DNA from: an uncultured Bacteroidota bacterium
Lineage (GTDB): Bacteria > Bacteroidota > Bacteroidia > Chitinophagales > Saprospiraceae
Assembly: GCA_903933805.1 (NCBI GenBank)
Contig: CAIZLM010000107.1
Coordinates: forward strand, 1-52,016
Direction: 5' to 3'
Length of the DNA: 52,016 nt
This document shows, one piece after another, positions 1,258 to 49,592 of this stretch. The notes below the pieces were generated by a model that was given only the letters and a program-made list of their open reading frames with translations, was not told the DNA's origin and did no database searches. The number at the start of each line of letters is the position of its first letter. Position 1 is the stretch's first letter. Position numbers and translations under genes: made by a program.

Positions 1258-1420
1258 TTTACTGGGTTGGGTGCTCGCCTCTCTGACAAAAAAGTGGCCA
1301 ATTTTTGCCAGATGAAGCAGATTTTTGCAGGATGTAGCAGTGCTGCGGTCAAAAAAATCTGCGAAGTATGGCGGAAAATGGGCCTTTTTGGGCCAGACAG
1401 CGTGCCACCTAACCAGTTAC
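1258..1420 (+). repeat. Long-form dispersed palindromic element (IS66-type MITE-like), copy 1
   Basis: The copy runs from a degenerate left end (TTTACTGGGTTGGGTG) to a canonical right end (GCCACCTAACCAGTTAC, ending at 1420). Between them are the shared blocks CTGACAAAAAAGTGGCC, TTTTTGCCAGATGAAGC, GTCAAAAAAATCTGCGAA and GGGCCTTTTTGGGCCAGAC. It matches the copies at 10142-10305 and 21989-22153 along its whole length. No clear target duplication was seen around it. Reading frames crossing it are repeat artefacts. Confidence 0.8.
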
Positions 1421-1578
1421 AAAATAAAAAACCCGTACACTCCTAGCGGGGACGCCAACAACGGCTGGATTTTGTACGAGCGACTGTCACATATCATTTG
1501 TATTACTTTCAGGTGGGCCCATACCCATCGCTGGTAGATGACGCCCTTTCAGGGCTGGCTGTGTTGTGGATGATACGA
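1421..1578. other. Gene-free spacer with a CCCTTTCAGGG palindrome
   Basis: No credible coding frame was found between the two palindromic elements; the short frames here lack family features. The only local structure is GCCCT-TTC-AGGGC at 1543-1555, inside ATGACGCCCTTTCAGGGCTG, downstream of a GC-rich stretch (GTGGGCCCATACCCATCGC). It may be a remnant of another dispersed repeat, but only one copy is visible in this window. Confidence 0.4.
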
Positions 1579-1610
1579 TGGGCCAGATAGCCTGCCACCC
1601 AACCAGTTAC
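1579..1610 (+). repeat. Right-half copy of the dispersed palindromic element
   Basis: ATGGGCCAGATAGCCTGCC followed by ACCCAACCAGTTAC reproduces only the right arm of the element. The matching left arm is absent from the 80 bases upstream. It ends one base before the stop codon (1612-1614) of the minus-strand serine-hydrolase gene. This makes it either a truncated element or one border of the segment carrying that gene. Confidence 0.7.
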
Positions 1611-1611
1611 G

Positions 1612-3000
1612 TTATTTTTTGTTCGTTTTGTTTATCAATTCGTAGGATAAAGCGTCAATTTTGTCATTGATGTCAGATACATTTGACAAGATAATAACCG
1701 CAGTTTTTTCTTCAACTTTCATGACTATTGAAGATGAATATCCACCTGTTCCTCCATTGTGCCAGAGCAAATCTTTTCCATTTTCGGATTCTAATTTGTG
1801 CCAACCTAAACCAATTTTCGTATCTCCTTTAATTTCAAAGGTTGTTATCCTAGTCAATTCGAGTTCTTTGTTTTTAGGATAGAATTGTGCATTTGCGAAC
1901 AATGCCAAATCTTCTGTTGTAGATAATATTCCTCCTGCTCCAAATAGAACATCAAAATCCCAATTAGATACAATTTCTCCTTTTTTGTTTAATCCTTTTA
2001 TAAGATTATTCCCCAATTTTTGTGGACTTGTGCATGAATTTTTCATTTTGTATTTGTCAAAAACCATCTTTTGTAAAAGGTGTTGAAAACTTGTTTTTTG
2101 AGACAACCCGAGTGTGTACCCTAAAAGTCCTGTACCCAAGTTTGAGTAGGCATACGTTTTGTTTCCAAGTTTCAACAAATTTTTAAGATACGCTTCAATT
2201 TCGGACTTGCCATAATTTTTATATGGATTTATTGCATTTGATACGTCTAAATTTTCAGGCAAACGCGGTAAGCCAGAAGTATGATTGGCCAAACGCTCAA
2301 AATTTATTTTGATGTTATCTTTGAAAGCAAATGGATAATATCCATTAATTTCGTCTGTCAATTTTAGTTTTTTTTGCGCTACAAGTGCAGCTAAAATGGT
2401 TGCCGTGAATACTTTTGTAATGGAGCCTATTTCAAAAATTTTCTTTTGATTTTCAGCAGGTTTTATCGTATCATTTTCTTTTATAATGCCGTAGTAATTT
2501 GTTTTTCCGTTTTCAATCAAGGCAATGGAAAGTTGCGTATTGTTTGGAAAATCGTTGGATTTTGAAAAGATGATTTCAGCAATTTCTTGGGGGTATTTGC
2601 GCAATGAATTTACCGTCTTATTGTCAATTTCTTTAGGGTTTTCATAAGGTTTTATAAAAAGTCCGTTGATTTGGTTTTGGTCATCAAGTGAAATGTTTAC
2701 CGCGAAAACAGCTTTTTCAAAAGTCGTTTTATACATTGCATAAGTTTTCTGCTGATAATCGATAAACACCATGCTTTCTATATCGCCTCCTTGAATTTTC
2801 AACTGGGCTAGAAACTCTTTTGTTTTTTCAACAGGCAATGATTTTTTCATTTCAAGTGAAAAACAGTTAAAAATTTCATCATATCGGTCAGTATTATAGT
2901 TCGCCTGAAAACTATCAATCGTAATTTTATAATTCTCGGTTTGCGCAAATAATAAATCTGTCATCAAGATAGCGATGAAGCAGGAAAGCAGTCTTCTCAT
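1612..3000 (-). CDS. Serine hydrolase of the class C beta-lactamase / PBP4* family with N-terminal DUF3887-like domain
   Basis: The 462-residue exported protein has a signal peptide (about 1-19, cleavage near LFAQ). Residues about 25-115 resemble the DUF3887 domain that often precedes this fold. The catalytic domain shows all three family motifs: SITK at 193-196 (nucleophile serine and base lysine), YSN at 285-287, and HNGG at 414-417 in place of KTG. Such proteins act in the periplasm as D-Ala-peptidases, esterases or related hydrolases; true beta-lactamase activity is not implied. Codon use is strikingly AT-rich (many TTT, AAA, ATT codons) against its GC-balanced neighbours, and palindromic-element ends border it at 1579-1610 and 3014-3024, which points to horizontal acquisition. 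The ATG at 3000 directly precedes the signal peptide. Confidence 0.88.
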   Translation of the reverse strand: MRRLLSCFIAILMTDLLFAQTENYKITIDSFQANYNTDRYDEIFNCFSLEMKKSLPVEKTKEFLAQLKIQGGDIESMVFIDYQQKTYAMYKTTFEKAVFAVNISLDDQNQINGLFIKPYENPKEIDNKTVNSLRKYPQEIAEIIFSKSNDFPNNTQLSIALIENGKTNYYGIIKENDTIKPAENQKKIFEIGSITKVFTATILAALVAQKKLKLTDEINGYYPFAFKDNIKINFERLANHTSGLPRLPENLDVSNAINPYKNYGKSEIEAYLKNLLKLGNKTYAYSNLGTGLLGYTLGLSQKTSFQHLLQKMVFDKYKMKNSCTSPQKLGNNLIKGLNKKGEIVSNWDFDVLFGAGGILSTTEDLALFANAQFYPKNKELELTRITTFEIKGDTKIGLGWHKLESENGKDLLWHNGGTGGYSSSIVMKVEEKTAVIILSNVSDINDKIDALSYELINKTNKK

Positions 3001-3013
3001 ACATATTGTTGTT

Positions 3014-3024
3014 GTAACTGGTTA
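3014..3024 (-). repeat. Isolated terminal repeat GTAACTGGTTA upstream of the serine-hydrolase gene
   Basis: GTAACTGGTTA is identical to the 11-bp outer end of the dispersed palindromic element, but the rest of the element is not recognisable to its right (ATTGTAGTAACCGCTAACG). With the half-copy at 1579-1610 it brackets the AT-rich gene with element ends pointing towards the gene. Eleven bases alone could occur by chance, so the call is tentative. Confidence 0.4.
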
Positions 3025-3058
3025 TTGTAGTAACCGCTAACGTGCAGCTATACTGTAA

Positions 3059-3098
3059 ACCACTGCATGGTATGAAACTGGTCATACCATGCAGTGGT
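3059..3098. repeat. Perfect 17-bp inverted repeat between serine hydrolase and alcohol dehydrogenase
   Basis: ACCACTGCATGGTATGA (3059-3075) and its exact complement (3082-3098) flank a 6-nt loop, AACTGG. It lies upstream of the minus-strand serine hydrolase and downstream of the minus-strand alcohol dehydrogenase, so it could end transcription of the latter or be part of a recombination site. No T-run follows on either strand. Confidence 0.7.
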
Positions 3099-3174
3099 TG
3101 TGAATACCGGATACGCAATAGGGGGTTCGTGGGAGGCTTACCCCGCCAACGGCATGGCCACTCACGCGGCCGTT

Positions 3175-3199
3175 GTTGTTGGCTGGATAAGCCAACAAC
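3175..3199 (-). terminator. Hairpin 3' of the alcohol dehydrogenase gene
   Basis: GTTGTTGGCT (3175-3184) and AGCCAACAAC (3190-3199) form a perfect 10-bp stem with a 5-nt loop, 20 bases past the stop codon of the minus-strand dehydrogenase. There is no clear U-tract, so termination is only a plausible role. Confidence 0.45.
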
Positions 3200-3218
3200 G
3201 GAGAAACATCCTGCCAAT

Positions 3219-4262
3219 TTATAACGTCGCCATATCGATCACAAAGCGATACTTAACGTCTCCTTTCAACATCCGTTCGTAAGCTTCGTTGATGTATGCC
3301 ATTTCGATGATTTCTACCTCCGCGGTGATCTGGTGCTCAGCACAGAAATCAAGCATTTCCTGCGTTTCAGGCAATCCGCCAATGGAAGATCCTGCAATGC
3401 TGCGACGGTTGTTCAGCAAACTGAAACCTGTTATTTCCATGGGCGTTGGAGGTACCCCCACACAAATCATGACGCCATCGGTATTCAGTAGTTTCAAGTA
3501 TTGACTGTGGTCATGGGGCGCGGATACCGTGTTGATGATGAAGTGAAAGGTATTGGCCAGTGCTTTGAGCTGTTCCGGGTCTTTGGTAAGGGCAAAGTGG
3601 TGGGCGCCCAACTGAAGCGCATCTTTTTCTTTGTGCGAGGAGGTACTCAGTACCGTTACTTCCGCACCGAAAGCAGCGGCAAACTTAACCGCCATGTGGC
3701 CTAAACCGCCCAAACCCAAAACGGCTACCCGATGACCTTTCCCGACCTTCCAATGTTTTAGGGGAGAATAGGTGGTAATACCGGCACAAAGCAGGGGCGC
3801 TACTGTCTCCAATGGCAGTTTGTCCGACACCTGAAGCACAAAAGATTCATCCACAACGATCTGTTTGGAATATCCGCCATACGTGACGCCGCCGGTATGC
3901 TTGTCCTTGCCATTGTAAGTGCCAATCGCCCCATTCCAGCAAAATTGCTCCAGTCCCCTTTTACAATTGTCGCATTCCCGGCAGGAATCTACGAGACAAC
4001 CAACGCCAGCGAGATCGCCTGCTTTAAACTTGGTCACCTGGTCACCGACCGCCGTAACACGTCCCACGATCTCATGTCCCGGAACAATGGGATAAACAGA
4101 GCCCTTCCATTCGTTGCGCGCCTGGTGCAGGTCCGAATGGCAAACGCCGCAATACAGGATCTCAAATTGAACGTCACGCGGACCAACGGTCCTTCTGTGA
4201 AACGTAAATGGGCCTAATGGAGCCGTAGCACTTTCTGCGGCAAAACCTTTGGTATTCGTCAT
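3219..4262 (-). CDS. Zinc-dependent NAD(P) alcohol dehydrogenase (cinnamyl-alcohol dehydrogenase / YahK type)
   Basis: The 347-residue medium-chain dehydrogenase probably interconverts primary alcohols and aldehydes in the cytosol. Visible family features are the catalytic zinc site CGVCHSDLH (about 38-46) with GHE (about 68-70) and a later cysteine (LLCAGITTYSPLK), and the structural zinc four-cysteine cluster CRECDNCKRGLEQFC. The nucleotide-binding loop is GLGGLG, followed by a strand ending in STSSHKEKDA; a serine/threonine-rich end of that strand is typical of NADP-preferring members. Length and motif order match E. coli YahK-like aldehyde reductases. The ATG at 4262 gives the expected N-terminus. 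The gene seems to stand alone: 161 bp separate it from the efflux adaptor upstream. Confidence 0.92.
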   Translation of the reverse strand: MTNTKGFAAESATAPLGPFTFHRRTVGPRDVQFEILYCGVCHSDLHQARNEWKGSVYPIVPGHEIVGRVTAVGDQVTKFKAGDLAGVGCLVDSCRECDNCKRGLEQFCWNGAIGTYNGKDKHTGGVTYGGYSKQIVVDESFVLQVSDKLPLETVAPLLCAGITTYSPLKHWKVGKGHRVAVLGLGGLGHMAVKFAAAFGAEVTVLSTSSHKEKDALQLGAHHFALTKDPEQLKALANTFHFIINTVSAPHDHSQYLKLLNTDGVMICVGVPPTPMEITGFSLLNNRRSIAGSSIGGLPETQEMLDFCAEHQITAEVEIIEMAYINEAYERMLKGDVKYRFVIDMATL

Positions 4263-4423
4263 GTTGGAATCGTATAAAAGTGATTTTGGAAGGTTTGTAG
4301 CCTAAACCTATGGCGTGGTTGGTAAACAACTTATTGGGGACAAAGTTGCTCGAATAGAAGGCCTACCGTTATTTGCTTCCATCCAAGTATCATTTGTCTT
4401 ATACTGCACCGGACAACGTCAAC

Positions 4424-10141: not shown

Positions 10142-10305
10142 GTAACTGGTTAGCGTTGTCGCGTCTGAGACAAAAAAGTGGCCATTTTTTTGCCAGAATT
10201 CGCCCATTTTTACAGGCCACAACCTCGCTACGGTCAAAAAAATGGGCGAAGTAGTACGAAAAATGAACTTTTTCGCGCCAGACAGCGCGCCACCTAACCA
10301 GTTAC
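10142..10305 (+). repeat. Long-form dispersed palindromic element, copy 2
   Basis: This complete 164-bp copy begins GTAACTGGTTAGCGTTGTCG and ends GCCACCTAACCAGTTAC. The outer 12 bp (GTAACTGGTTAG) are a perfect inverted repeat; inner blocks (GTCTGAGACAAAAAAGTGGCC on the left, GCCAGACAGCGCGCC on the right) pair imperfectly. Flanks share TAAAAA on both sides (10131-10136 and 10306-10311), not in exact register, so a duplication is doubtful. It lies between the efflux operon promoter and the 3' end of the small unknown gene at 10364. Confidence 0.85.
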
Positions 10306-10769: not shown

Positions 10770-10803
10770 GTAACCGGTTAGGCGGCAGGCTGTCTGGTCA
10801 AAA
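10770..10803 (-). repeat. Right-half palindromic element at the stop codon of the propeller regulator
   Basis: GTAACCGGTTAGGCGGCAGG then CTGTCTGGTCAAAA is the complement of the element's right arm (canonical GTAACTGGTTAGGTGGC...GTCTGGCCCAAAA). The TGA stop of the upstream minus-strand gene (10798-10800) lies inside it, in TTTTGACCAGACAGC, very close to TTTTTGAGCCAGACAGC in the copy ending at 22153. Either an insertion fused to the end of the gene or a decayed copy was kept as the 3' end. Confidence 0.65.
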
Positions 10804-21988: not shown

Positions 21989-22153
21989 GTAACTGGTTAG
22001 CGTGGTCGCGACTGAGACAAAAAAGGGACCATTTTTTGCCAGACGAAGCGGATTTTTGCAGGCCGTAGCAGCGCGCTACGGTCAAAAAAATATGCGAACC
22101 ATGGCGGAAAATGGGCCTTTTTGAGCCAGACAGCGTGCCTCCTAATCAGTTAC
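21989..22153 (+). repeat. Long-form dispersed palindromic element between the two GH30 genes
   Basis: This 165-bp copy begins GTAACTGGTTAGCGTGGTCG and ends GTGCCTCCTAATCAGTTAC. The centre holds a perfect 7-bp inverted repeat, CCGTAGC (22063-22069) and GCTACGG (22075-22081). On both sides lie complementary-looking T-rich and A-rich blocks (GATTTTTGCAGG against GTCAAAAAAATATGC), so the full element can fold into one long interrupted hairpin. It occupies most of the 300-bp gap between the GH30 genes. No obvious flanking duplication. Confidence 0.85.
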
Positions 22154-26586: not shown

Positions 26587-26700
26587 GCCAAAATTGAAGA
26601 GCAGGTTTTTTAACAATAGACCTGTGCGAAAGCAGAGCACAGGGACGGGTTATGGCGTGTTTTTAGGGGAAATGGTTGCCTTATCAATGGCATATTTAAC

Positions 26701-26777
26701 ACAACGGATTGGGTGATCGCGTCTGAGACAAAAAATGGGTCTTTTGGGGCCACAAAACATGCTACCCAACCAGTTAC
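26701..26777 (+). repeat. Short-form dispersed palindromic element, first of a pair upstream of the M23 gene
   Basis: This 77-bp copy has a degenerate left end (ACAACGGATTGGGTGATCGC), the block GTCTGAGACAAAAAATGGG, and the right end GCTACCCAACCAGTTAC. Compared with the long form, the central about 85 bp are missing. Together with the copy at 26836-26915 it fills much of the 460-bp divergent spacer between the SprE-like gene and the M23 peptidase gene. Confidence 0.8.
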
Positions 26778-26835
26778 TTTTATTCTCCATTTTTTAACCG
26801 AACTTTGCTGCTGAAAAGGCGTTTAAAAAATGAAG

Positions 26836-26915
26836 GTAACTGTTTAGCGTGGTCGCGTCTGAGACAAAAAAGAGGCCATTTTTTGGCGAGACAGCGTGCC
26901 AACCTAACCAGGTAC
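26836..26915 (+). repeat. Short-form dispersed palindromic element with 8-bp flanking repeat
   Basis: This 80-bp copy runs from GTAACTGTTTAGCGTGGTCG to CCAACCTAACCAGGTAC. The flanks are AAATGAAG (26828-26835) and AAATAAAG (26916-26923), matching at 7 of 8 bases, as expected for an old target-site duplication. Both ends carry point changes relative to the consensus, so this copy is probably inactive. Confidence 0.82.
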
Positions 26916-30243: not shown

Positions 30244-33200
30244 CTATCGAACCAACGTGACATCGCCTTTGTACAGCAAAACACGACCATCAATCAGGCG
30301 AATTTCAGCGTAGTACACAAATACCGCAGGATCCATCAGCTTGTCCCGAAGGCGACCTGTCCAGCCATAGGCAGGGTCGTTCGGCTGAAAATTGGATGCC
30401 GTAAACACCATCTCTCCCCAACGGTCGTACACTTGGAATTTATCCACCTGATCAATCTGCTTGTTATCGGCAAAAATGAGAAAGACATCGTTGTCTCCGT
30501 CTTCATTCCAAGGTGAAAATGCATTGGGAATGTAAATGTGCGGCTCATTGTCAACTCGAATCAACACCTTGTCGCGGGCTTCACAGCCATCTTTGCTGAC
30601 AAGTACAACCAAGTATTCCGTTGATTTGTAGGGTTTGGCACTCGGCGACAACAAATCCAGCATACTGGTGCTTTTAAACGTCAACCCGTCCAATGGTGTC
30701 CACGTAATGGTATCAATGAGGGCAACCGGATAACCCGGAGGCAACACGGCAAGAATCGTCAACGAGTCGCCCAGTTCAATGGTAAAACTCGGGTCTAAGC
30801 TGATGCCGGGGTCCGGTGCCTGGGGTACCACCAGGGGCTCATGGTAGTCACAACCATTGGCGTCTTGTATCCATAAGTCATACGTGCCCGGGGTTATTTG
30901 CGCGAAATCAAGCGCCGGGGTGAAGTTTTGACCACCATTGATGGAATAGATATACGGCCCAACACCACCGGTGACCGTCTGAAAGGTAATCGAACCATCG
31001 TTGTCTTTACACGAGGGTTTCACAAGATCTACCACCAGATCTGTTGGCAAATTGATCTCGGTCAAAATGATTACGTTGTCGGTTTGGGTACAGCCCGTGC
31101 TGGTATTCGTTACCGTAAGCGCGTAAGTCCCGGCGTGGTTGACAACCGGTTGAAGGCTGTTCATACCGGAAATAAAATGCCCACCATTGGTAGTCCATGC
31201 ATACGTGTACTGCGTACCGGTTGAACCTTCGCCCAACAAGGTCACGTGATCTACTGTGCACGTGAGGATAAACGATGGACCGGCCTCGGCAGTAGGCAAC
31301 ACGATATTGTCGGTTACTGTTACGGTTTTGACCGCAGAGCAGCCATTGATGTTGTTGAGCACGGTGAGGGTGTAATGCCCGGACAAACTGACTTGCGCAG
31401 CGTTGCTGTTGGCGCCTCCCACAATATTTCCATCCGTGGTCGTCCAGGTATAACCAATATTGGGACCACCCTGGGACCCGCTGCCATTCAGCGTAACCTG
31501 TGGAATGGTACATGTAATGAGACCAGGGTTTGCAATGGCCACCAACGGCGCTTGGGTATTGACACTCACCAGCACATTGTCACTAGAAGAGCACCCATTG
31601 ACGTTGTTCACCACCGACAAAGTATAGGTTCCACCTGCACCAATGCTGGGGGTAAGGCTGCCTGCACCACCCATGATTTGTCCGTCGTTGGTTGTCCACA
31701 GATAGGAGAAGTTGCCATTTTGGCTCGATCCATTGCCACTCAATTGCAAGGTGGTAATCGCACAGGTGAGCAAGCCATCCGTGCCCGCAGAAGCAATGGG
31801 ATGCTGTATATCCTGGGGCACCACAACCGTGTTGGAAGCGGTACAGCCGTTGCTGTTGGACGTTACCAGTAGCGTGTAGGTGCCGGGCTGGTCCACAATG
31901 GGCTGTAAAGGGTTGGTCTGATTGACAAAATGACCACCCACCGTTGACCAGGCATACACCATATTACCCAAACTGCTACCCGCAGCGTTGACCGTCACTT
32001 GAACGGCTGCACAGGTCAGGGTAGCAGGCTGCTGAATGGCTGAAACGGGGGCCGTCTGATCGACGTTGACGGCTACCTGGTCCGTACTGCTGCATCCATT
32101 CGCCTGGCTCGTGACCGTCAGAACATACGTACCGCCTGCATTGATCGTTGGGGAGAGGGTATTGCCACCGCCCACGATATTGCCATTGTTCTGAGCCTGC
32201 CATTGATACGTAAAATTACCACTGGAGGACACACTTCCTGCAAGGTTGAGCGATGTTGCGGTACAGGTCAGGGTTGGCGCAGCACCAGCATCTATCACCG
32301 GCGGCGTGATGTCTTGTAACACCACCAAACTGTTACTGCTGCTGCAATTGTTCAGCGTATTGAATACCAACAGCTTGTAGGTGCCGGGTTGATTGATCAC
32401 TGGAAACAGGGAATTGGGGCCGCTGACAATATTACCGCCGTTGGACGCTGTCCATTGATACGTAAACTCATTGCCCAGGCTAGAACCCACACCGCTCAAG
32501 GTCCACGACGGGACTGCACAAGTCAACACCGGCGCATTGTTGACAATGGCCAACGGTATATCTGCCGCCTGGGTAATGGTTACTTGGGCCGTGGAGGTAC
32601 AACCGTTTACCGTATTCGTCACCAAAAGGTTGTAAATACCCGGTCCGTCAACCGTCGGGTTTAAGATGTTTGTTGGTGTAGTAAAACTGCCGATGCCTAC
32701 AGAAGTCCATTTATAGGTAAAGTTCGGACCAACACTGGCGGTTGACTGCATGGTATAGGTATTCTGAACACAGGTCAGCTGAAACCCCGGCCCGGCAGTA
32801 GCCAGCGGTGGCGCAAAATCTGCTGTAATATTTACCTGATCCGTTCGGGTGCAGCCATTCAACGTATTGGTCACCACCACGGTATAAAGTCCACTTTGAT
32901 TTACCACCGGATTGCCGGTATTGGCGCCGGAAACGATGCCATTGCCCGTCCACGAGAAAGCAAAGTTCGACCCCACCGGATTGCCGGCACCGCCCAGTTG
33001 TTGTTGTACATTGTAGCAATTCAGAACCTTATCAGGCCCGGCATCTGCCGGTGGAGTCGCGACATCTTGCGCAACAGCCACGGTTAAAGCAGAAGTACAC
33101 CCATTGGAAGTATTGGAGATCAACAGCGTGTAGTTGCCCGGCTGATTGACCATGGCATTTAACCCCGCAGGATCAGACACAAGACCGGGCCCTGACCACA

Positions 33201-36200
33201 AGTAAGCGATTTCCGTCCCAACAGAGGAGCCAATACTGTTGAGGGTTGTTTCAGATATCAAGCAATTGAGCGTAGCCGGTGCGGCCACTTGCACCACCGG
33301 ATCATTGGCATCCGGCAACACCAGCACCAAATCAGTTGACGTACAGCCGTTGAGGATATTGGTGACGGTGATTTGGTACGTTCCCTGCTCATCAACCAAG
33401 GGGCTTTGAAGGTTGGTGGCCGACACAAAATGCCCTCCTGATAACGCGCCCCATTGGTATGTGTAATTGGGCCCGGTACTCGAGTTGCTACCATCCAAAG
33501 TAGCAGCAGGCAGAATACACGTGAGAATCACCTCCGATCCGGCATCAGCCTGTGGTGGTGCGACGTCAGACGTCACGTCTATACTGTAAGAGGAGGTGCA
33601 ATTGTTCGAAGTATTGGTCACCAACAAAGTGTAGGTACCCACTGCACCGGCTGATATTTGCATCGTTCCCTGACCACTGAGTATCTGGCCATTGGCCGTA
33701 TTCCATTGATACTGGATGTTTGGACCACTGGAAGAGCCCGTTGCGGCCACCATTACAGCAGGGACCGCACAGGTGATGATGCCCTGGGGTGCTGCCACAG
33801 CGGTTGGCACATTGGCGTTGATGGTGACCGTGGCAGAGGCCGATCGGGTGCAACCATTGATGGTGTTGGTCACCACCAAGGTGTAGGTACCCACGGAATT
33901 GACGGTAGGCGTCAGGGTGTTGCCACCCGAACTGATGCCACCACCGGGAGGAGGCGTCCAATCATAGATAAAATTCGGTCCTGTGCTGCTGCCCGTGCCG
34001 TTGAGCTGTACCGAAGTAACCACACAGGTGATCTGCCCGCCAGGGGCAACCACCGCCAGAGGAGGCACCATATTGTTGATGACCACCGCGTTGTCTGAAG
34101 CAGTACAACCATTGAGGGTATTGGTCACCACCAAGGTATAAGTACCGGTTGTCAAGACACTGGGTGTCAGGGTGGAGTCGCCACTGACAATGATCCCGCC
34201 GTTGGAAGCCGTCCAGTGATGCGTATAATTGGATCCAAATGCAGATCCGTTGCCGTTGAGCACAATGGTATCCACCACACAGGTGAGCGTACCATCCGGC
34301 CCGGCATTGGTAGCGGGGGGCGTATTATCTGCTACAACCGGAACCGTAACAGTTGCGGTACAACCATTGAGGGTATTGGTAACTTTGAGGATATAATTAC
34401 CCGTTTGGTTTACAATAGGGGTGAGTGTGCCGTTTCCGCTGACAATATTACCCGGACTGGCAAGCCAGTTGTACACAAAATTGGTGCCGACGGAAGAACC
34501 CGTACCATCCAAAGGGATGGCGGAGGTGGTGCAATTGATGACGCCGTTGGCGGTAGCCACCGAGGTTGGTGCCGTGAAATCTCCCGTTATTATGGCTGTT
34601 GTCGTTTTGGCGCATCCTGTTTGGTCGGTGACGGTCACCGTATAAGTTCCGACACCGAGGTTGCTCGGGTCCTGCAGGGTGGTGCCATTCGACCACAAAT
34701 AGGTGTAGGCCGGATTGCCGCCCGCCACCGTTAAGTCAATACTGCCGTTGTTGGGGTATGCGCAATTGACACCCTGCACGGTTGTCGTGGGGGCCAAAGG
34801 CGGGGGCGATTGCACCACAAAGGTGTTGACGTTCATGCACCCGAAACCATCCACGACCGTTACGTTGTAAGTACCGGGAAGAATATTAACCGGATCAGGA
34901 ATATTGCCAATATTGCTGGGGCCCTGCCAACTGTAGTTGTATGGACCTTGTCCGCCCACCACCGTGGTATTGATGGAGCCATTGGTCAGGGTAGAGCAAG
35001 AGGCATTGGACACAGTTCCCGTCAGCGACAGGTTGGAGGCGGTGACCAGCACGGCGCCGGAACCGACGCCGGGGCATCCGAGGGAATCAATAACCGCGAT
35101 GATTTGGTAGAGACCTACCTGGTTCACCACCAAAGTGTATGGATCGTCTGTGATGTTTTCTATGGGTGATTGAGGATTTCCATTGAGGGCGTATGTCAAC
35201 TCAAATGGTCCTATTCCATTGAAATTAACGGGAATGGTAGCCTCTTCTCCCGGGCACAATTGTGGTGCAGGGGGCACCAATTGAGCGCTTGGCGTGGGCG
35301 TGACAATGATGCGTGCCACGGCAGTTTTCGTTCGGCCACAGGCATCGGTGATGGTAACCGTATAGCTGGTGCTGGTACTGACAAAAGCCGTCAGGGTGGA
35401 TTCATTGCCGCCAATATTCCACTGGTATGAATAGGGCTCTACCCCACCTTCAACGATCACCCCAACCGTACCTACACCCGTAGGACCACAGACCGTGATT
35501 GTATCCGGCGTGGGCATCATGGGGTGGTAGTCTAGGATGGTGAGTATTTCCTGTGGATGGAGGCAGGAACAAGGGCTGCTGAGTGTTACAATAACCGTTT
35601 CTGCGCCCTCCGGTATCATGTCATTGATGATGTTCACCGGGAACAGCACCTGATCCTGGCCGGCAGGAATGACGATGGTGAATGGTATCGGCGTGAAATC
35701 CGCACCAGACATGGCGGTACCGGTCACCGTAAACGACACCGGCAAGGGCAATGATGGGTTAGAGCCCACTCGATCTATCAACAACTGAACCGTACCACAG
35801 CCTTCAACGACCTCGTCTAAATCTGGGTCACCATTCACAATCCAATCAACGGAAGCATTACCGCCCCCATCGAAGGAACCGGATTTGAGAAAAACCGCCG
35901 AGTCCCACACCCCATCACCCACGTCGGCAATGGCCAGTTTGATGTGGTACGTGGAACATGGAATAACCTGCGCCACGGCAATCATTTTCCTGGTAAAACC
36001 ATCGTATTGCAATTCCACCGTAGCCTGACCGGTAGCAGGAGGCACCGGAGGCAATGTCCCGGAAACACCCCCATTTTCACAGTTGTCCAAACCAGCTGGC
36101 GTATTGTGCACATACAAACCTGCATTGGTCACGTGGTTGATGGTATTGATGGTAATAGGCGTATTTGTCATCGGAATAACCGCCAAATTTTGCGTGCCAG

Positions 36201-37068
36201 CAATACCAGGGCCAGAAATAAAAAAGCCGAAAACATCGTTGAAATTGGTGTTTACATACTCACAATACTCCTCCGAAGCAAAGGCATAGGAGAACGTCAA
36301 CGGCGTTTGGGTGGGGGTGAAATCAAATTCAATCGCCGCGACATCAAACAAGGCACCAGAGGAAATAGACGCCAAGTCACCATCGCCACCGCCGGAACCA
36401 CCGCCACCTGCACCGTTTGAATTGTTCGGCCCTATCGCAACGTTGATATCGCCCGTGGCCATGATCATACCCGTCTCAAACCCAATATTCGTAAGGCCAC
36501 TCAAAAACTTGCCAATCTGATCGCCGCCGCCATTGTAGGAAACGTTCGTCACGTCAAAACAGTCGCCACCAATAAACACTTCTCGAATCAACTCTTCCGC
36601 ACCAGCAGCCTCCACCTCAATCGTTGACAAAACCGGCGGCGGGGAGTCAGCCTCCCCCTTCACGGTACAATCCTGACATACAATGGAAATATAGTGCCTC
36701 GGCGGGTTCGACTGCTCCCAACTACATGGGTAATGCAGCAATACCTGTCCAATAGAAGATGTTGCTTTAAAACGCAACAGATGCTTCATGGTGTCATTAT
36801 CAAGCAGTTCCGCAGTAGGAGCCACCACAGAAACATCGGGCAAACAATCACCCAGCGCCGCATCAGGAGGCACTACCAACATATAAACCTTCCCTTTTTT
36901 AAGGTGCTGAAAATTGATAACCTGATCCTGGGCATACGCCGTGATCACCTGTCGCGGCTCACCGGCATCCAACACCAAAAGGCCTTCTCCAGATTGGGCA
37001 TTTAATACGCCCGTCATTTGGAGCAATAGGCCTAAACATAACAAAGCGCGAAAAGTAGCGTTAAACAT
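30244..37068 (-). CDS. Giant surface adhesin with choice-of-anchor L, Calx-beta, SprB repeats, 14 Ig-like repeats and type B T9SS C-terminal domain
   Basis: From ATG 37068 the product has 2274 residues with signal peptide MFNATFRALLCLGLLLQMTGVLNAQ; upstream codons to 37155 are not needed. Domains in order: choice-of-anchor L (about 165-390, FSYAFASEEYCEYVNTNFNDVFGFF), Calx-beta (about 420-500, PEGAETVIVTLSSPC), Ig-like/PKD part (about 505-675), two SprB repeats (about 680-820), and fourteen about 84-residue repeats (about 840-2005). Each repeat has a TC near its start, a Y-W core, GTYTL-VTNT and NGCT near its end. A third SprB repeat (about 2010-2080) is followed by the CHU_C/gliding C-terminal domain (about 2180-2274, IPNAFSPWNEDGDNDVF, VYDRWGE, DPAVFVYYAEI). 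That last domain directs export by the type IX system. A role in adhesion or gliding is inferred. Conserved cysteine pairs suggest one disulfide per repeat. Confidence 0.93.
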   Translation of the reverse strand: MFNATFRALLCLGLLLQMTGVLNAQSGEGLLVLDAGEPRQVITAYAQDQVINFQHLKKGKVYMLVVPPDAALGDCLPDVSVVAPTAELLDNDTMKHLLRFKATSSIGQVLLHYPCSWEQSNPPRHYISIVCQDCTVKGEADSPPPVLSTIEVEAAGAEELIREVFIGGDCFDVTNVSYNGGGDQIGKFLSGLTNIGFETGMIMATGDINVAIGPNNSNGAGGGGSGGGDGDLASISSGALFDVAAIEFDFTPTQTPLTFSYAFASEEYCEYVNTNFNDVFGFFISGPGIAGTQNLAVIPMTNTPITINTINHVTNAGLYVHNTPAGLDNCENGGVSGTLPPVPPATGQATVELQYDGFTRKMIAVAQVIPCSTYHIKLAIADVGDGVWDSAVFLKSGSFDGGGNASVDWIVNGDPDLDEVVEGCGTVQLLIDRVGSNPSLPLPVSFTVTGTAMSGADFTPIPFTIVIPAGQDQVLFPVNIINDMIPEGAETVIVTLSSPCSCLHPQEILTILDYHPMMPTPDTITVCGPTGVGTVGVIVEGGVEPYSYQWNIGGNESTLTAFVSTSTSYTVTITDACGRTKTAVARIIVTPTPSAQLVPPAPQLCPGEEATIPVNFNGIGPFELTYALNGNPQSPIENITDDPYTLVVNQVGLYQIIAVIDSLGCPGVGSGAVLVTASNLSLTGTVSNASCSTLTNGSINTTVVGGQGPYNYSWQGPSNIGNIPDPVNILPGTYNVTVVDGFGCMNVNTFVVQSPPPLAPTTTVQGVNCAYPNNGSIDLTVAGGNPAYTYLWSNGTTLQDPSNLGVGTYTVTVTDQTGCAKTTTAIITGDFTAPTSVATANGVINCTTSAIPLDGTGSSVGTNFVYNWLASPGNIVSGNGTLTPIVNQTGNYILKVTNTLNGCTATVTVPVVADNTPPATNAGPDGTLTCVVDTIVLNGNGSAFGSNYTHHWTASNGGIIVSGDSTLTPSVLTTGTYTLVVTNTLNGCTASDNAVVINNMVPPLAVVAPGGQITCVVTSVQLNGTGSSTGPNFIYDWTPPPGGGISSGGNTLTPTVNSVGTYTLVVTNTINGCTRSASATVTINANVPTAVAAPQGIITCAVPAVMVAATGSSSGPNIQYQWNTANGQILSGQGTMQISAGAVGTYTLLVTNTSNNCTSSYSIDVTSDVAPPQADAGSEVILTCILPAATLDGSNSSTGPNYTYQWGALSGGHFVSATNLQSPLVDEQGTYQITVTNILNGCTSTDLVLVLPDANDPVVQVAAPATLNCLISETTLNSIGSSVGTEIAYLWSGPGLVSDPAGLNAMVNQPGNYTLLISNTSNGCTSALTVAVAQDVATPPADAGPDKVLNCYNVQQQLGGAGNPVGSNFAFSWTGNGIVSGANTGNPVVNQSGLYTVVVTNTLNGCTRTDQVNITADFAPPLATAGPGFQLTCVQNTYTMQSTASVGPNFTYKWTSVGIGSFTTPTNILNPTVDGPGIYNLLVTNTVNGCTSTAQVTITQAADIPLAIVNNAPVLTCAVPSWTLSGVGSSLGNEFTYQWTASNGGNIVSGPNSLFPVINQPGTYKLLVFNTLNNCSSSNSLVVLQDITPPVIDAGAAPTLTCTATSLNLAGSVSSSGNFTYQWQAQNNGNIVGGGNTLSPTINAGGTYVLTVTSQANGCSSTDQVAVNVDQTAPVSAIQQPATLTCAAVQVTVNAAGSSLGNMVYAWSTVGGHFVNQTNPLQPIVDQPGTYTLLVTSNSNGCTASNTVVVPQDIQHPIASAGTDGLLTCAITTLQLSGNGSSQNGNFSYLWTTNDGQIMGGAGSLTPSIGAGGTYTLSVVNNVNGCSSSDNVLVSVNTQAPLVAIANPGLITCTIPQVTLNGSGSQGGPNIGYTWTTTDGNIVGGANSNAAQVSLSGHYTLTVLNNINGCSAVKTVTVTDNIVLPTAEAGPSFILTCTVDHVTLLGEGSTGTQYTYAWTTNGGHFISGMNSLQPVVNHAGTYALTVTNTSTGCTQTDNVIILTEINLPTDLVVDLVKPSCKDNDGSITFQTVTGGVGPYIYSINGGQNFTPALDFAQITPGTYDLWIQDANGCDYHEPLVVPQAPDPGISLDPSFTIELGDSLTILAVLPPGYPVALIDTITWTPLDGLTFKSTSMLDLLSPSAKPYKSTEYLVVLVSKDGCEARDKVLIRVDNEPHIYIPNAFSPWNEDGDNDVFLIFADNKQIDQVDKFQVYDRWGEMVFTASNFQPNDPAYGWTGRLRDKLMDPAVFVYYAEIRLIDGRVLLYKGDVTLVR

Positions 37069-37100
37069 AACGTGTGGGATTGTAATGATGGTTAATGATT

Positions 37101-37133
37101 CAAACCGAGTTCTGTATCGGGTAGCCACCCAAA
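37101..37133 (-). promoter_or_regulatory. Possible Bacteroidota-type promoter of the adhesin gene
   Basis: On the minus strand TTTG (37133-37130) is followed after 21 nt by TCGGTTTG (37108-37101), one base from the TAnnTTTG -7 consensus of Bacteroidota. The spacing fits, and the start codon lies 33 bases downstream. Confidence 0.4.
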
Positions 37134-37155
37134 TGCGGGGATGTTGAACCTGCAA

Positions 37156-42678: not shown

Positions 42679-42708
42679 TTTGTTCGCTGAAAGGTCTTAA
42701 TAAATTTG
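42679..42708 (+). promoter_or_regulatory. Probable trxA promoter with two TAAATTTG boxes
   Basis: Two perfect TAAATTTG boxes lie at 42675-42682 and 42701-42708. The TTTG within the first (42679-42682) stands 18 nt ahead of the second, so it could serve as its -33 element. Transcription would then begin near 42715, about 53 nt before the trxA start. The spacing is one base short of the usual range, so this is tentative. Confidence 0.45.
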
Positions 42709-42767
42709 GATTACCAAAGAACTTTCACATTTAGGTACCTTGTGCACTATTATAGCCTTTATAACCT

Positions 42768-43073
42768 ATGACCGACTCATTCAAAAACCTCGTCCAGTCA
42801 GAAACACCTGTGCTGATTGATTTTTGGGCAACTTGGTGCGGCCCCTGCCGGGCAATGGCGCCGGTACTCGATGCACTCAAAGCAGACTTGGGAGATCGGG
42901 TACGCATCATAAAAATTGACGTCGATAAAAATACCGAACTCGCCGTTGAAATGAAAGTACTCGGCGTCCCTACCTTTATGGTGTACAAAAAAGGCGTACA
43001 ATACTGGTCAGAAGCTGGTACCTTCACCAAGGAATCGCTGAAAAAAGTCGTAGAAAGTATTGAAAAACAGTAG
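42768..43073 (+). CDS. trxA: Thioredoxin
   Basis: The 101-residue protein is a complete thioredoxin fold with active site WCGPC (C24, C27), preceded by the strand VLIDFWATW, and the cis-proline loop LGVPTFMVYKKG. It reduces protein disulfides in the cytosol and could serve as electron donor for ribonucleotide reductase and the redoxin two genes downstream. There is no signal peptide. Its last 14 bases overlap the TTG start of the carboxypeptidase gene, so it leads a tightly packed trxA-vanY-redoxin-nadC unit. Confidence 0.96.
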   Translation: MTDSFKNLVQSETPVLIDFWATWCGPCRAMAPVLDALKADLGDRVRIIKIDVDKNTELAVEMKVLGVPTFMVYKKGVQYWSEAGTFTKESLKKVVESIEKQ

Positions 43074-43905: not shown

Positions 43906-43907
43906 CC

Positions 43908-44483: not shown

Positions 44484-44557
44484 CCCTCCGCCAAAAACTT
44501 TGTTATGCACTGCTTATTACCTGTCTTTATTACTCACATCCACCCACCAATACCATC

Positions 44558-45418: not shown

Positions 45419-45421
45419 TAC

Positions 45422-45498
45422 GCAAATGGTGAGATTGCCACCGCTGAGATAAAAAATGGACCTTTTGGCCCAGGCTCTTCGACGACCTAAGTCGTTGC
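45422..45498 (+). repeat. Short-form palindromic element inserted at the nadC stop codon
   Basis: This diverged 77-bp copy runs from GCAAATGGTGAGATTGCC to CGACCTAAGTCGTTGC, with the internal block CTGAGATAAAAAATGGACC. Its flanks are GATAATAC (45414-45421) and GAAAATAC (45499-45506), identical at 7 of 8 bases, a likely target-site duplication. The left duplicate contains the nadC TAA. Confidence 0.72.
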
Positions 45499-45520
45499 GA
45501 AAATACACTTTATGAATAAC

Positions 45521-45598
45521 GTAACGACCTGGTTGGTCGCGTCTGAAACAATAAAATAGACCCTTTGGGGCCAGACTGCGTGATACCTGAGTCGTTAC
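45521..45598 (+). repeat. Short-form palindromic element with variant termini, upstream of the helicase gene
   Basis: This 78-bp copy starts GTAACGACCTGGTTGGTCGC and ends GATACCTGAGTCGTTAC. The outer 8 bases GTAACGAC/GTCGTTAC are perfectly complementary but differ from the common GTAACTGG/CCAGTTAC. Flanks TGAATAAC (45513-45520) and CGAATAAA (45599-45606) agree at 6 of 8 positions. It ends 17 bp before the helicase ATG, so it replaces the expected promoter-proximal leader. Confidence 0.8.
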
Positions 45599-45615
45599 CG
45601 AATAAACAAACACAA

Positions 45616-46896
45616 ATGGACTTTTCTGAATTGGGATTACATCCCGACGTGCTGGACGGTATTGACGCACTTAATTTTAAAACAGCCACGCCCATTCAGG
45701 CGCAGGCAATCCCCCTTATTTTACAGGGCCGCGACCTCATCGGCGTCGCACAAACAGGCACCGGAAAAACAGCCGCTTTTGTCCTGCCCATCATTGACCT
45801 TATCCTCGACGAACCCGAAAGTAAGTTTATCAAAGCGCTGATCATCGTGCCCACCCGAGAACTTGCCCTGCAAATCAACAAAGCCATCGAGGCATATTCT
45901 TACTTCACCGGAACCTCTTCCATCGCGGTGTATGGCGGTGGCAGTGGCGCCGATTTTTCACAAGAAAAAACAGCCCTGACACAGGGCGTGGACATTGTGA
46001 TCGCGACCCCCGGACGATTGATCTCCCACATGAGTATGGGCTATGTCAATTTTTCCAAACTCCGTTTTCTGGTGCTCGACGAAGCCGACCGCATGCTGGA
46101 CATGGGTTTCCAACCCGATCTGCTGCGCATCATCGGCATCACCAACCCCAAACGACAAACCATGTTGTTCTCCGCGACCATGCCACAAGGGGTCATGAAA
46201 CTCGCCAAAACAATGCTCCACGACCCGGCAACCATCAGCATCGCCTTGTCCAAACCTGCCGTGGGCGTTACACAAGGCGCTTACCTCGTCAGCGATGCCC
46301 AAAAAATCCCGCTAATGGTGGAAATTCTCAACGGCCGAGAAGGACAACGCATCATTGTTTTTGCTTCCACCAAACAGGCTGTTTCTAAGTTGTACCAAAA
46401 ACTGAAAAGCAAACGATACAACGTCGCTCAGGTCAGCAGCGACCTTGAACAGGAAGAACGGGAACAAGTAATGTTGCAGTTCAGAAACCGGGTTGTTGAC
46501 ATCATCGTAGCCACCGATGTGCTCAGCCGTGGCATCGACATTGATGGCATCGATCTGGTTGTTAATTACGACATTCCTCGCGACGCGGAAGATTATGTGC
46601 ACCGCATTGGCCGCACAGCCCGCGCAGCGCGTAAAGGCGAAGCCATCACGCTGGTATCGCCCGAAGATGGTTTTAAATTCAAAAAAATTGAAAAACTAAT
46701 CGACAAAGAGGTGCCCAAGTTGGCACTTCCAGCCAGCATCGGCGCAGCGCCCACGGAGGGCTCAACACTGAGAAGCCGAGAGCCACGCCGCCCAGCATAT
46801 CGGAAAGACGGGGCAAAAACCGGAGAACAAAAACGGGAGAATAAATCAAGCAAACCGCGCTGGCGCGACAAGCCGAAACCCAAGCAAGAAGGATAA
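45616..46896 (+). CDS. DEAD-box ATP-dependent RNA helicase (RhlE/DeaD-like)
   Basis: The product has 426 residues from ATG 45616; upstream codons come from the palindromic element. All helicase motifs are present: Q motif FKTATPIQAQAIP, I AQTGTGKT (45-52), Ia PTRELALQ, Ib TPGR, II DEAD (155-158), III SAT, IV IIVFAST, V ATDVLSRGID and VI HRIGRTAR. The C-terminal tail (about 375-426) is basic and disordered (RREPRRPAYRKDG-like, KSSKPRWRDKPKPKQEG), typical of RhlE-type proteins that bind RNA or ribosomes. Roles in ribosome assembly or cold adaptation are inferred. It converges on pyrD, with 24 bp between stops. Confidence 0.94.
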   Translation: MDFSELGLHPDVLDGIDALNFKTATPIQAQAIPLILQGRDLIGVAQTGTGKTAAFVLPIIDLILDEPESKFIKALIIVPTRELALQINKAIEAYSYFTGTSSIAVYGGGSGADFSQEKTALTQGVDIVIATPGRLISHMSMGYVNFSKLRFLVLDEADRMLDMGFQPDLLRIIGITNPKRQTMLFSATMPQGVMKLAKTMLHDPATISIALSKPAVGVTQGAYLVSDAQKIPLMVEILNGREGQRIIVFASTKQAVSKLYQKLKSKRYNVAQVSSDLEQEEREQVMLQFRNRVVDIIVATDVLSRGIDIDGIDLVVNYDIPRDAEDYVHRIGRTARAARKGEAITLVSPEDGFKFKKIEKLIDKEVPKLALPASIGAAPTEGSTLRSREPRRPAYRKDGAKTGEQKRENKSSKPRWRDKPKPKQEG

Positions 46897-46920
46897 ATGG
46901 TGGTGCAGGAGGGGTGGGGT

Positions 46921-47955
46921 TTAGCGTTCCAATAGGATGCGCTTAACCAGCCCCGGACCTTCATACACCAGTCCGGTGTACACCTGCACCAAATCTGCAC
47001 CCGCATCGAGTTTTTCACGCGCAGAGGCAGCCGAATCAATACCGCCCACCCCTATGATGGCAACTTCCGATCCCAGCTTTTGCCGCAAATAGCGGATGAC
47101 TGCTGTCGCGCGGGCACGTACAGGCGCACCGCTGAGCCCACCCATGCCCATCTCCGCCACAGCCGAAGCTGCGGTGTGCAGTCCTTCCCTGGAAATGGTG
47201 GTATTGGTGGCAATAATGCCCGCTATTCCGGTGGCAAGCACCAAATCAGCGATGTCGTCGAGCTGACTGTCGGTCAGATCAGGCGCAATTTTAAGGAGGA
47301 TGGGCTTGGAGGTTGGTTGTGCGTTGTTGCGGGCCTGCAACAAATACAGCAGGCGCATCAAGGGCTCTTTTTCCTGTAAATCACGCAGACCGGGGGTATT
47401 GGGTGAACTGACATTCACCACAAAATAATCCACCCAAGGAAAGAGTTTCGCAAAACATACCAAGTAATCCTCATCGGCAGCCTCGTTCGGGGTAGCCTTG
47501 TTCTTTCCGATGTTCCCACCAATAATCAGGCCTTCCGGAAGTCCTTTCTTGCGCAATTTTTCGAGCCGCGCGGCGAGGGCGTCCAAGCCTTCGTTGTTGA
47601 ATCCCATGCGGTTGATGAGCGCGCGGTCTGCCGGCAAGCGGAACAACCGCGGGCGAAAATTGCCCTCCTGCGGCACCGGCGTCACCGTGCCCACTTCAAT
47701 GAAACCAAAGCCCAAACAGGCAAGGCCTTCAATGTGTTTCCCATCTTTGTCGAAACCCGCCGCCAAACCAACCGGGTTCGGGAACGTGAGTCCAATGACT
47801 TTTCGGGCCAATTGCGCATCCTTTACACAGAATAAACGGGCCAATAACCACCGCGTGGGCGGGAAAGATGCCGCGAGGTCTAAGAAAAAAACGGTGATAC
47901 GGTGTGCTTTCTCCGGAGAAAAAGCAAAAAGGAACGGCTTGAGTAGGTGGTACAC
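46921..47955 (-). CDS. pyrD: Dihydroorotate dehydrogenase (quinone), class 2
   Basis: I place the start at GTG 47955 (VYHLLKPFLFAFSPEKAH, the usual class 2 N-terminus), giving 344 residues. The only in-frame ATG (48021) adds 22 residues, the first of which are encoded by a palindromic element. The enzyme oxidises dihydroorotate to orotate in pyrimidine synthesis, passing electrons to membrane quinone. Blocks visible are the amphipathic N-terminal helix, GLTFPNPVGLAAGFDKDG, FIEVGTVTPVPQ-GN-PRLFRL, INRMGFNNEGLD, GGNIGKNK, YFVVNVSSPNTPGLRDLQ (catalytic serine), LLKIAPDLTD, IATNTTISREGL, GLSGAPVRARAT, GVGGIDSA. The FMN- and substrate-binding residues appear intact. Confidence 0.94.
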   Translation of the reverse strand: MYHLLKPFLFAFSPEKAHRITVFFLDLAASFPPTRWLLARLFCVKDAQLARKVIGLTFPNPVGLAAGFDKDGKHIEGLACLGFGFIEVGTVTPVPQEGNFRPRLFRLPADRALINRMGFNNEGLDALAARLEKLRKKGLPEGLIIGGNIGKNKATPNEAADEDYLVCFAKLFPWVDYFVVNVSSPNTPGLRDLQEKEPLMRLLYLLQARNNAQPTSKPILLKIAPDLTDSQLDDIADLVLATGIAGIIATNTTISREGLHTAASAVAEMGMGGLSGAPVRARATAVIRYLRQKLGSEVAIIGVGGIDSAASAREKLDAGADLVQVYTGLVYEGPGLVKRILLER

Positions 47956-47992
47956 AGCGAAAAGAGGATGGTGGGTGAGCGTAAAAAAAATC

Positions 47993-48067
47993 GCAACTGG
48001 TTGGGTAGTCGCATCTGACAAAACATGGGCCTTTTTGGGTCAGACGGCGTGCCCCCTAACCAGTTAC
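47993..48067 (+). repeat. Short-form palindromic element overlapping the alternative pyrD start
   Basis: This 75-bp copy runs from GCAACTGGTTGGGTAGTCGC to GTGCCCCCTAACCAGTTAC, with central TCTGACAAAACATGGGCC. Flanks AAAAAATC and AAACATTT share only 5 of 8 bases. It lies in the divergent pyrD-fabG spacer, and the only in-frame upstream ATG for pyrD (48021) falls inside it. Confidence 0.8.
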
Positions 48068-48185
48068 AAACATTTAACAACGAAAGTAGCGTCGTTTGGC
48101 GCAAAAATACAACCATGTTTTATTAAACCATCGGAAGATTCCCCAACTTTGCCCGGTAACATCTTTTCACTTCTCTTCGTCACAT

Positions 48186-48926
48186 ATGAAACTATTGGAA
48201 GGCAAAATAGCGTTGATCACCGGCGGCTCCCGCGGTATTGGTGAAGCATTGGTACGCAAATTCACAGAACAAGGCGCAAAAGTGGCCTTCACATACGTGT
48301 CCGCCGGGTCCGCCGCCAAAGCGGAGGCCCTGGCGGCCGAACTGGGCGGCAGCACCAAGGCTTATCAGAGCGATGCCGGCAATTACACTCAAGCCGAAGC
48401 ACTGATCTCCCAGGTGGTGGCCGACTTCGGAAAACTAGACATCGTCGTCAACAATGCCGGCATTACCCGCGATACGCTCATGCTCCGTATGACAGAGCAA
48501 CAGTGGGACGAGGTGATCCAAACCAACCTTAAATCAGTGTTCAACATCACCAAACACGCACTTAAACCCATGATTCGCACGGGTGGCAGTATCATCAACA
48601 TGAGCTCGGTGGTGGGTGTTTTCGGCCAACAAGGACAAGCAAACTACGCAGCTTCCAAAGCCGGAATCATCGGATTTTCTAAATCAATCGCGAAAGAATA
48701 CGGATCCCGCGGCATTCGCTGCAATGCCGTGGCGCCCGGCTTCATCGCCACAGAAATGACCGATGCCCTCGACGAAAAAACCAAGGAAGGCTACCTCGCT
48801 TCCATCCCACTCAAACGACTCGGCTCTGGCGACAATGTGGCCAATACCTGTATTTTCCTCGCTTCCGATATGGGGGCGTACGTTACGGGACAGGTGATTT
48901 CGGTTTGTGGCGGCTTAAACTGCTGA
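48186..48926 (+). CDS. fabG: 3-oxoacyl-[acyl-carrier-protein] reductase
   Basis: The 246-residue short-chain dehydrogenase starts at ATG 48186; 30 upstream codons are unrelated. It reduces 3-oxoacyl-ACP with NADPH in type II fatty-acid synthesis. Motifs are the cofactor loop TGGSRGIG near the N-terminus, NNAGITRD, the catalytic serine in NMSSVVG, YAASKAG (tyrosine and lysine of the YxxxK pair), the PGFIATEMTD loop and the C-terminal YVTGQVISVCGG, which distinguishes FabG from many other short-chain reductases. It stands apart from other fatty-acid genes in this window and converges on the HsdR-N-like gene with an 18-bp gap. Confidence 0.93.
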   Translation: MKLLEGKIALITGGSRGIGEALVRKFTEQGAKVAFTYVSAGSAAKAEALAAELGGSTKAYQSDAGNYTQAEALISQVVADFGKLDIVVNNAGITRDTLMLRMTEQQWDEVIQTNLKSVFNITKHALKPMIRTGGSIINMSSVVGVFGQQGQANYAASKAGIIGFSKSIAKEYGSRGIRCNAVAPGFIATEMTDALDEKTKEGYLASIPLKRLGSGDNVANTCIFLASDMGAYVTGQVISVCGGLNC

Positions 48927-48944
48927 GAAAACGCGGTGCGCACT

Positions 48945-49394
48945 TCAAAATGCCGGTAATTCCTCCAGATATTGAAAACTTGCGTGCTCAAAATCCAGGG
49001 CGCAACAATAGGTGTTTAGGCCATTTGTAGCAACAAGAAAGGGTGCCTTCAGACACAGGTTGTAACGTGCCACTTGTTCAAAGGTCGCCTGCGAAAGGCG
49101 CACCTTGGGTGATTTACATTCCACCACCAACCACGGCTTTACATCAGCATCAAACACAACAATGTCACAGCGTTTTTTCAGGCCATTCACTTCAATGCCA
49201 ATTTCTGATCGGATGCGGTGCAGCGGGCATTTTTTTTCATCCAACAAATACAGGAGCACCAATTGACGCAGTAGCTCTTCGGGAGTGAGTACGACCTCTT
49301 TCTTGCGTATGGGATCAAATACATAGGTTGTTTCGCCCGACTTGGTGAGGCGAAGTTTGGGTTGAAATTGAAGAAAATCAAGTTCGAGAAGCAC
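48945..49394 (-). CDS. Orphan type I restriction HsdR N-terminal-like protein (PD-(D/E)xK fold)
   Basis: The 149-residue product starts at GTG 49394 (MLLELDFLQFQPKLRLTKSGETTYVFDPIRKKEVVLTPEELLRQ in effect), as no ATG lies near. The nuclease-like core is visible: an acidic strand KRCDIVVFDADVKPWLVVECKSPK containing D and the E-x-K pair, followed by the helix TFEQVARYNLCLKAPFLVATNG. This is the HSDR_N_2 type of domain, widespread in Bacteroidota as a free-standing protein. No HsdM, HsdS or helicase domain is nearby, so it is not part of a restriction system here and its function is unknown. Its 5' end lies 20 bp from the palindromic element at 49414. Confidence 0.85.
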   Translation of the reverse strand: MLLELDFLQFQPKLRLTKSGETTYVFDPIRKKEVVLTPEELLRQLVLLYLLDEKKCPLHRIRSEIGIEVNGLKKRCDIVVFDADVKPWLVVECKSPKVRLSQATFEQVARYNLCLKAPFLVATNGLNTYCCALDFEHASFQYLEELPAF

Positions 49395-49405
49395 GCAGTT
49401 GTTGG

Positions 49406-49500
49406 GTTATGTTGTAACTGGTTAGGTGGCACGCTGTCTGGCCCAAAAAGGCCCATTTTTTTGTCTCAGACGCGACCACGCTAACCAGTTGCGTTATGTT
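49406..49500 (-). repeat. Short-form palindromic element with perfect 8-bp target duplication
   Basis: The element proper is 49414-49492: GTAACTGGTTAGGTGGCACG at one end and CGCTAACCAGTTGC at the other, in the opposite orientation to the other copies. It is exactly flanked by GTTATGTT (49406-49413) and GTTATGTT (49493-49500). This 8-bp direct repeat is the best evidence in the window that the elements move by transposition; 8-bp duplications and GTAA ends fit the IS66 family. Confidence 0.9.
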
Positions 49501-49536
49501 TTAGGTTGCACCGTTTTTGGATGGACGTATTCCGGC

Positions 49537-49592
49537 GTAACAGGTTGTAAGTGGTTGGGTAGCGTACCACCCAACCACTTACAACCTGTTAC
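49537..49592. terminator. Perfect 24-bp inverted repeat at the 3' end of the nucleotidyltransferase-kinase gene
   Basis: Arms 49537-49560 and 49569-49592 are exact complements with an 8-nt loop (AGCGTACC). The stem contains nested element-like ends: an outer GTAACAGG/CCTGTTAC and an inner GTAAGTGGTTGGGT/ACCCAACCACTTAC resembling the core of the dispersed element. It covers the TAA (49589-49591) of the minus-strand gene, so it doubles as a strong transcript-end hairpin. Confidence 0.85.

Follow-up and report, generated by a model that had tools for sequence, protein, structure and literature searches.

The window analysed here, a 52,016-bp stretch of DNA, contains repeats that form one family of non-autonomous mini-transposons (MITEs) of two sizes, about 163 and about 79 bp. 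Both size classes have the 12-bp inverted ends GTAACTGGTTAG and carry no transposase gene. We consider it very probable that the ends of these MITEs are recognised by an IS66-family transposase of the ISBst12 group, acting in trans.

Family definition and copy number

In the draft genome assembly (336 contigs, 4.2 Mb, 97% complete) the window corresponds to contig C107. A first-pass annotation had listed nine copies and two half-copies in it, and all of these were present, three of the copies belonging to the long class and six to the short class (Table 1); the listed copies at 45422 and 45521 were weak. The ends that the MITE has in common with a transposase-bearing element of a congener (G009, below) are 12 bp long, not 25 bp as had been proposed. 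An alignment of 19 long copies gave a consensus of 163 bp with a mean column identity of 89%, and an alignment of 15 short copies gave a consensus of 79 bp with a mean column identity of 84%. The two classes have their ends in common, and in the alignments the short form resembles the long form minus its middle. A 33-bp mini-copy, consisting of two 12-bp ends separated by 9 bp, was observed on contig C34 of the same genome (L071:4809-4841). The window also contains an open reading frame of 2303 aa (30244-37155, minus strand) in which units of about 250 bp are repeated.

Table 1. Copies of the MITE family and associated features in the window
Feature	Position	Strand	Evidence
Diverged short copy absent from the first-pass list	1059..1122	+	Profile 30.5 bits
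Long copy of the 163-bp class with a decayed left end	1258..1420	+	Profile 172.5 bits
Solo right end (half-copy)	1579..1610	+	Profile 19.6 bits
Long copy, both 12-bp ends intact	10142..10305	+	Profile 151.2 bits
Solo right end (half-copy)	10770..10803	-	Profile 17.9 bits
Long copy	21989..22153	+	Profile 178.3 bits
Short copy, left end diverged	26700..26777	+	Profile 62.5 bits
Short copy	26836..26915	+	Profile 75.6 bits
Short copy, strongly diverged, marginal	45422..45498	+	Profile 14.4 bits, E 0.019
Short copy, diverged, different ends (GTAACGAC...)	45521..45598	+	Profile 39.0 bits
Short copy	47993..48067	+	Profile 61.5 bits
Left target duplication GTTATGTT	49406..49413	.	Script comparison of flanks
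Short copy, perfect 8-bp target duplication	49414..49492	-	Profile 88.6 bits; no copy at the orthologous site in G001 and G017
Right target duplication GTTATGTT	49493..49500	.	Script comparison of flanks

The pattern GTAACTGGTTRG occurs 733 times in the genome (375 + 358), compared with 2 occurrences (1 + 1) of the backward-read pattern that served as a control. Profiles for the copy search were derived from 34 copies (19 long, 15 short), of which 7 lie in the window and therefore match by construction. With the same profiles, the reversed sample and the reversed window gave no match at an E value of 0.01. For the systematic sample, contigs whose number is a multiple of 8 were taken, 40 of 42 after the omission of C48 and C216, and no more than the first 20 kb of each was used. 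In these 386,531 bp the profile search found 37 long, 35 short and 23 partial copies covering 2.4% of the bases, where a long copy spans at least 120 of 163 positions and a short copy at least 55 of 79, and where the counts are uncorrected for chains such as the "long" match at 26704-26915, which runs over two short copies and was mended for the window. The resulting 72 full or nearly full copies per 386.5 kb fit the density of about one per 5 kb given previously, and by extrapolation the 4.2-Mb genome would hold roughly 780 copies, about 400 long and about 380 short. Genome-wide model searches returned at least 151 and at least 155 matches.

Target duplications and evidence of transposition

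Flanking sequences were surveyed in 706,590 bp of the genome, partly picked for carrying copies, which contained 106 full copies. Perfect 8-bp duplications flanked 22 of these, compared with about 0.5 in shuffles. The first-pass reading of non-autonomous elements with GTAA-type ends and 8-bp duplications is supported. At least seven of the eight flanking bases were duplicated in 28/56 long full copies, with 16/56 perfect (0.35 in shuffles), and in 16/50 short full copies, with 6/50 perfect (0.12 in shuffles). For 43 of the 106, at most four of the eight bases agreed and a duplication was not visible. Copies with a duplication of at least 7/8 were closer to their consensus than copies with at most 4/8, both in the long class (identity of 0.931 versus 0.859, p = 1.8e-4) and in the short class (0.871 versus 0.803, p = 0.016). 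In the window, the flanks of the copy at 10142-10305 agreed at 4/8 bases by script, and no target duplication was seen when the flanks of the copies at 1258, 21989, 26836 and 47993 were read by eye. Three pairs of full copies lie less than 30 bp apart (L055:2684-2934, L057:1145-1478 and L170:2739-3072), and in all three the spacing is exactly 8 bp, as if one copy had inserted directly beside another.

The genes flanking the copy at 49414-49492 are 194 bp apart in the window. The first of these genes was found at 13 loci of relatives, and at two of them (G001 and G017) the second gene is adjacent, at a distance of about 5 bp in G001 and abutting in G017, where the second gene is shorter. Since neither gap can hold a copy, the site is empty in both relatives that keep the gene pair, as judged from the spacing, the intergenic bases being unalignable; an empty orthologous site of this kind had been suggested as a check on transposition. 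The window gap, which has no counterpart in G017 and one of about 5 bp in G001, also contains a perfect palindrome at 49536-49593 with 25-bp arms and a 36-bp inner palindrome (GTAAGTGGTTGGG...CCCAACCACTTAC).

Gene context and RNA folding

Gene context was derived from a simple purpose-made gene caller (286 genes, 82% coding). Among 107 elements, 95 from the sample and 12 from the window, 90 overlapped predicted genes by at most 20%, 13 lay partly within genes and 4 lay inside them, two of these four at contig ends, so that the earlier statement that no copy lies inside a gene was nearly right. In the sample and window together, the elements amount to 10,548 bp versus 46,403 bp of other DNA in predicted intergenic gaps, a share of roughly 18% that is a rough figure since some elements overlap predicted genes. 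Nine of the 95 sample elements are no more than 60 bp away from one of the 74 contig ends counted, so the repeats probably help to break draft assemblies. Tandem gaps contained 42 elements per 166 gaps, convergent gaps 19 per 44 and divergent gaps 22 per 40, and this excess between convergent or divergent genes over tandem ones fits selection against harm.

The same distribution could also be read as a sign that the hairpins are kept for an RNA function, as a terminator, mRNA end or regulatory element, with their spread being secondary; selection against the disruption of operons would, however, yield the same bias. The long-form consensus forms a long hairpin of -43 kcal/mol, as an RNA function would lead one to expect, but the short form folds weakly (-4.6 kcal/mol) and Rfam gave no match in the window. 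In alignment A1 the covariation score was 0.075 versus 0.062 in shuffles, with 0/500 reaching the observed value, and paired cells were also above shuffles. Pairs changed on both sides numbered 5 versus 1.4 in shuffles (3/500 reached it), but these were 5 of 54 pairs, each in one sequence, the range in slid controls was 3 to 6, and for the long-form consensus the covariation energy term was unfavourable. The evidence for a conserved RNA fold is thus mixed, and we regard an RNA function as an improbable explanation of the repeats.

Search for a parent transposase

A parent IS66 transposase had been expected elsewhere in the same genome. Three loci of the genome match PF03050 (IS66), and GTAACTGGTTAG is present at none of them: the first element is complete, has the ends GTAAGCCTCCCAC and is flanked by a perfect 8-bp duplication; the second (L002) is a remnant without readable ends; and the third, of the single-ORF type, has the ends GTAACTATCCAG and lacks a clear duplication. 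The two elements with readable ends were rejected as parents, their ends GTAAGCCTCCCA and GTAACTATCCAG matching those of the MITE at 4/12 and 8/12 positions, respectively. An intact IS66 transposase with GTAACTGGTTAG ends was not found in the draft assembly; with the draft in 336 contigs, the assembly may lack a multi-copy parent.

The 12-mer GTAACTGGTTAG was counted in 24 congeners, with 36 occurrences in G014, 13 in G020, 9 in G016, 3 in G006 and 0 to 2 in the others. In G009, a single pair of these ends bounds a 3,130-bp element (L034:3279-6408) with the duplication TTTTCAGA. The element's own gene encodes an ISBst12-like transposase of the IS66 family (PF03050, 1.6e-32; zf-IS66; sub-threshold match to DUF6444). 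This was the one transposase-bearing element found with ends matching the MITE, and G009 is the sole genome in which a transposase gene and GTAACTGGTTAG ends were seen together. The proposed IS66 origin holds, such a gene lying between exact 12-bp ends in one congener, but the part that placed an intact parent in the genome itself does not. The type is narrowed, from sequence comparison, to a predicted single-ORF transposase of the ISBst12 kind. The G009 transposase gene stops at 4141, within the boundary of one of two nested IS1 copies (3374-4145), so this copy may be broken. Past the 12-bp ends the G009 element has little in common with the MITE, and descent of the MITE from it is accordingly unsupported. 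No match to the G009 transposase was found in G020, G016 or G014, where the 12-mer is frequent; G020 and G016 have similar element ends, and those that were read run into contig ends.

The IS1-family genes inside the G009 element raised the question of whether a different DDE family with 8-bp duplications, for instance IS1, had moved the MITEs. The IS1 copies are nested, however, and have other ends, and the unit is repeated elsewhere in G009 (56 family matches), so that IS1 was rejected as the parent of the MITEs. PF03400 had no match in the genome under study or in G020, G016 and G014, all of which have the 12-mer, and no IS1 element bounded by GTAACTGGTTAG was seen in the genomes examined, making movement by such a family highly improbable. 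The elements are also small, palindromic, mostly intergenic and present in many copies, as are REP or REPIN palindromes moved by a RAYT (Y1) transposase, the alternative that the first-pass annotation had itself named, but we give this virtually no credence, since a Y1_Tnp match is absent from the genome (and present in 5 of 14 control genomes) and the 8-bp duplications are at odds with the HUH mechanism.

With regard to the preferred reading, movement by a transposase of the ISBst12 group, a search for related transposase genes covered the genus and 149 genomes of the order, and 14 loci were examined. The ends were readable at 10 of the 14, and these 10 together with the G009 element all fit GTAANNNNNNAG, examples being GTAAAAACTTAG, seen in G007 on six copies (with perfect duplications at four of these), GTAACTATTTAG and GTAACTATTCAG. 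A perfect 8-bp duplication was present at 6 of the 11 readable transposase-bearing elements. In the genome under study, contig C332 carries a 68-aa transposase piece immediately interior to a CTAACCAGTTAC end, and a full long MITE flanks the piece on the opposite side. The G009 transposase was the closest to this piece among 12 loci compared (68% over 63 aa; next 60%). As the only transposase sequence of the genome adjoining such an end, the fragment ties GTAACTGGTTAG-type ends to an IS66 transposase within the genome itself; lying on a short, repeat-rich contig, it could be an assembly join.

We propose that the MITEs were moved by an ISBst12-type transposase which, supplied in trans, would insert them at AT-rich targets and duplicate 8 bp each time. 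Insertions within genes would mostly be purged by selection, which is the presumed cause of the intergenic bias, and copies would accumulate between genes. Insertion would have been spread over time, the older copies having drifted and lost their duplications. The short class would be the long class with its middle deleted, an origin suggested by the alignments, and the parent may have decayed in its own genome or be missing from the draft assembly.

Relatives and wider occurrence

Among the matches listed, the long model gave 81 in G014, 22 in G020, 3 in G016 and 1 in G001. Eight G014 loci, chosen for paired ends, hold elements of 161-162 bp that are 69% identical to the long consensus and have identical 12-bp ends. 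Their interiors aligned to those of the present family with a score of 36, compared with a maximum of -9 in 500 shuffles. Of the seven G014 copies with both flanks, five had perfect duplications and two had 7/8. By these comparisons, the G014 elements are a related, homologous family.

Other small elements with the same 12-bp end were observed at L042:2762-2935 in G021 (174 bp) and near position 2607 of L044 in G006 (about 45 bp). An identical 30-base MITE end is present on L140, a 5-kb contig of a Flavobacteriales metagenome-assembled genome and the only contig found in the genome-contig scan, which may not cover the genome under study; this contig is perhaps misbinned. A search of viral contigs for phage carriage, with one 21-base MITE end, gave no exact match.

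Comparison with known systems

Correia- and ERIC-type MITEs have ends that differ from those of the present family. In published descriptions they resemble it in being gene-less, palindromic and present in many intergenic copies; a MITE review cites 711 ERIC copies in Photorhabdus luminescens, and the main text of that review does not mention IS66 (PMC10969869). MITECca01 of Cardinium, also of the Bacteroidota, is described as a gene-less element carrying the ends of a known IS (PMC9769881), in which it is like the present family; it differs in belonging to the IS982 family, in its length of about 240 bp and in having an intact parent within the same genome. ISDge4 of the ISBst12 group in Deinococcus geothermalis has an 8-bp repeat and the ends GTGACTACTCAGCA/GTAACTGCTCAGCA (PMC12898284), and GTAACTGGTTAG agrees with these ends at 10/12 and 8/12 positions, with a duplication of the same length. 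Unlike members of the ISBst12 group, the MITE is 79-163 bp long and without a transposase gene, whereas the transposase-bearing congener elements measure 1441-1516 bp. The titles and abstracts retrieved on IS66 with MITEs or with ISBst12, in a coverage that leaves out most subscription journals, describe no IS66-derived MITE.

The load estimated here (about 780 copies, 2.4%) equals or slightly exceeds the 711 ERIC copies cited and the 2% of a bacterial genome that MITEs may reach according to PMC3281130. The repeats are thus a known kind of element and a new family, with the unusual density as the main interest. More tentatively, the MITE load could rank with the densest described in bacteria, and the family could be the first on record to depend on an ISBst12-group IS66 transposase; it would take up a large share of the intergenic DNA and would have persisted in two or more species of the genus, keeping identical 12-bp ends while the interior drifted, perhaps maintained by transposases that are gained and lost over time. 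Its hundreds of insertions, of varied ages and many with readable duplications, provide a natural data set on target choice, and the same insertions are informative on insertion beside existing copies and on the loss of a parent.
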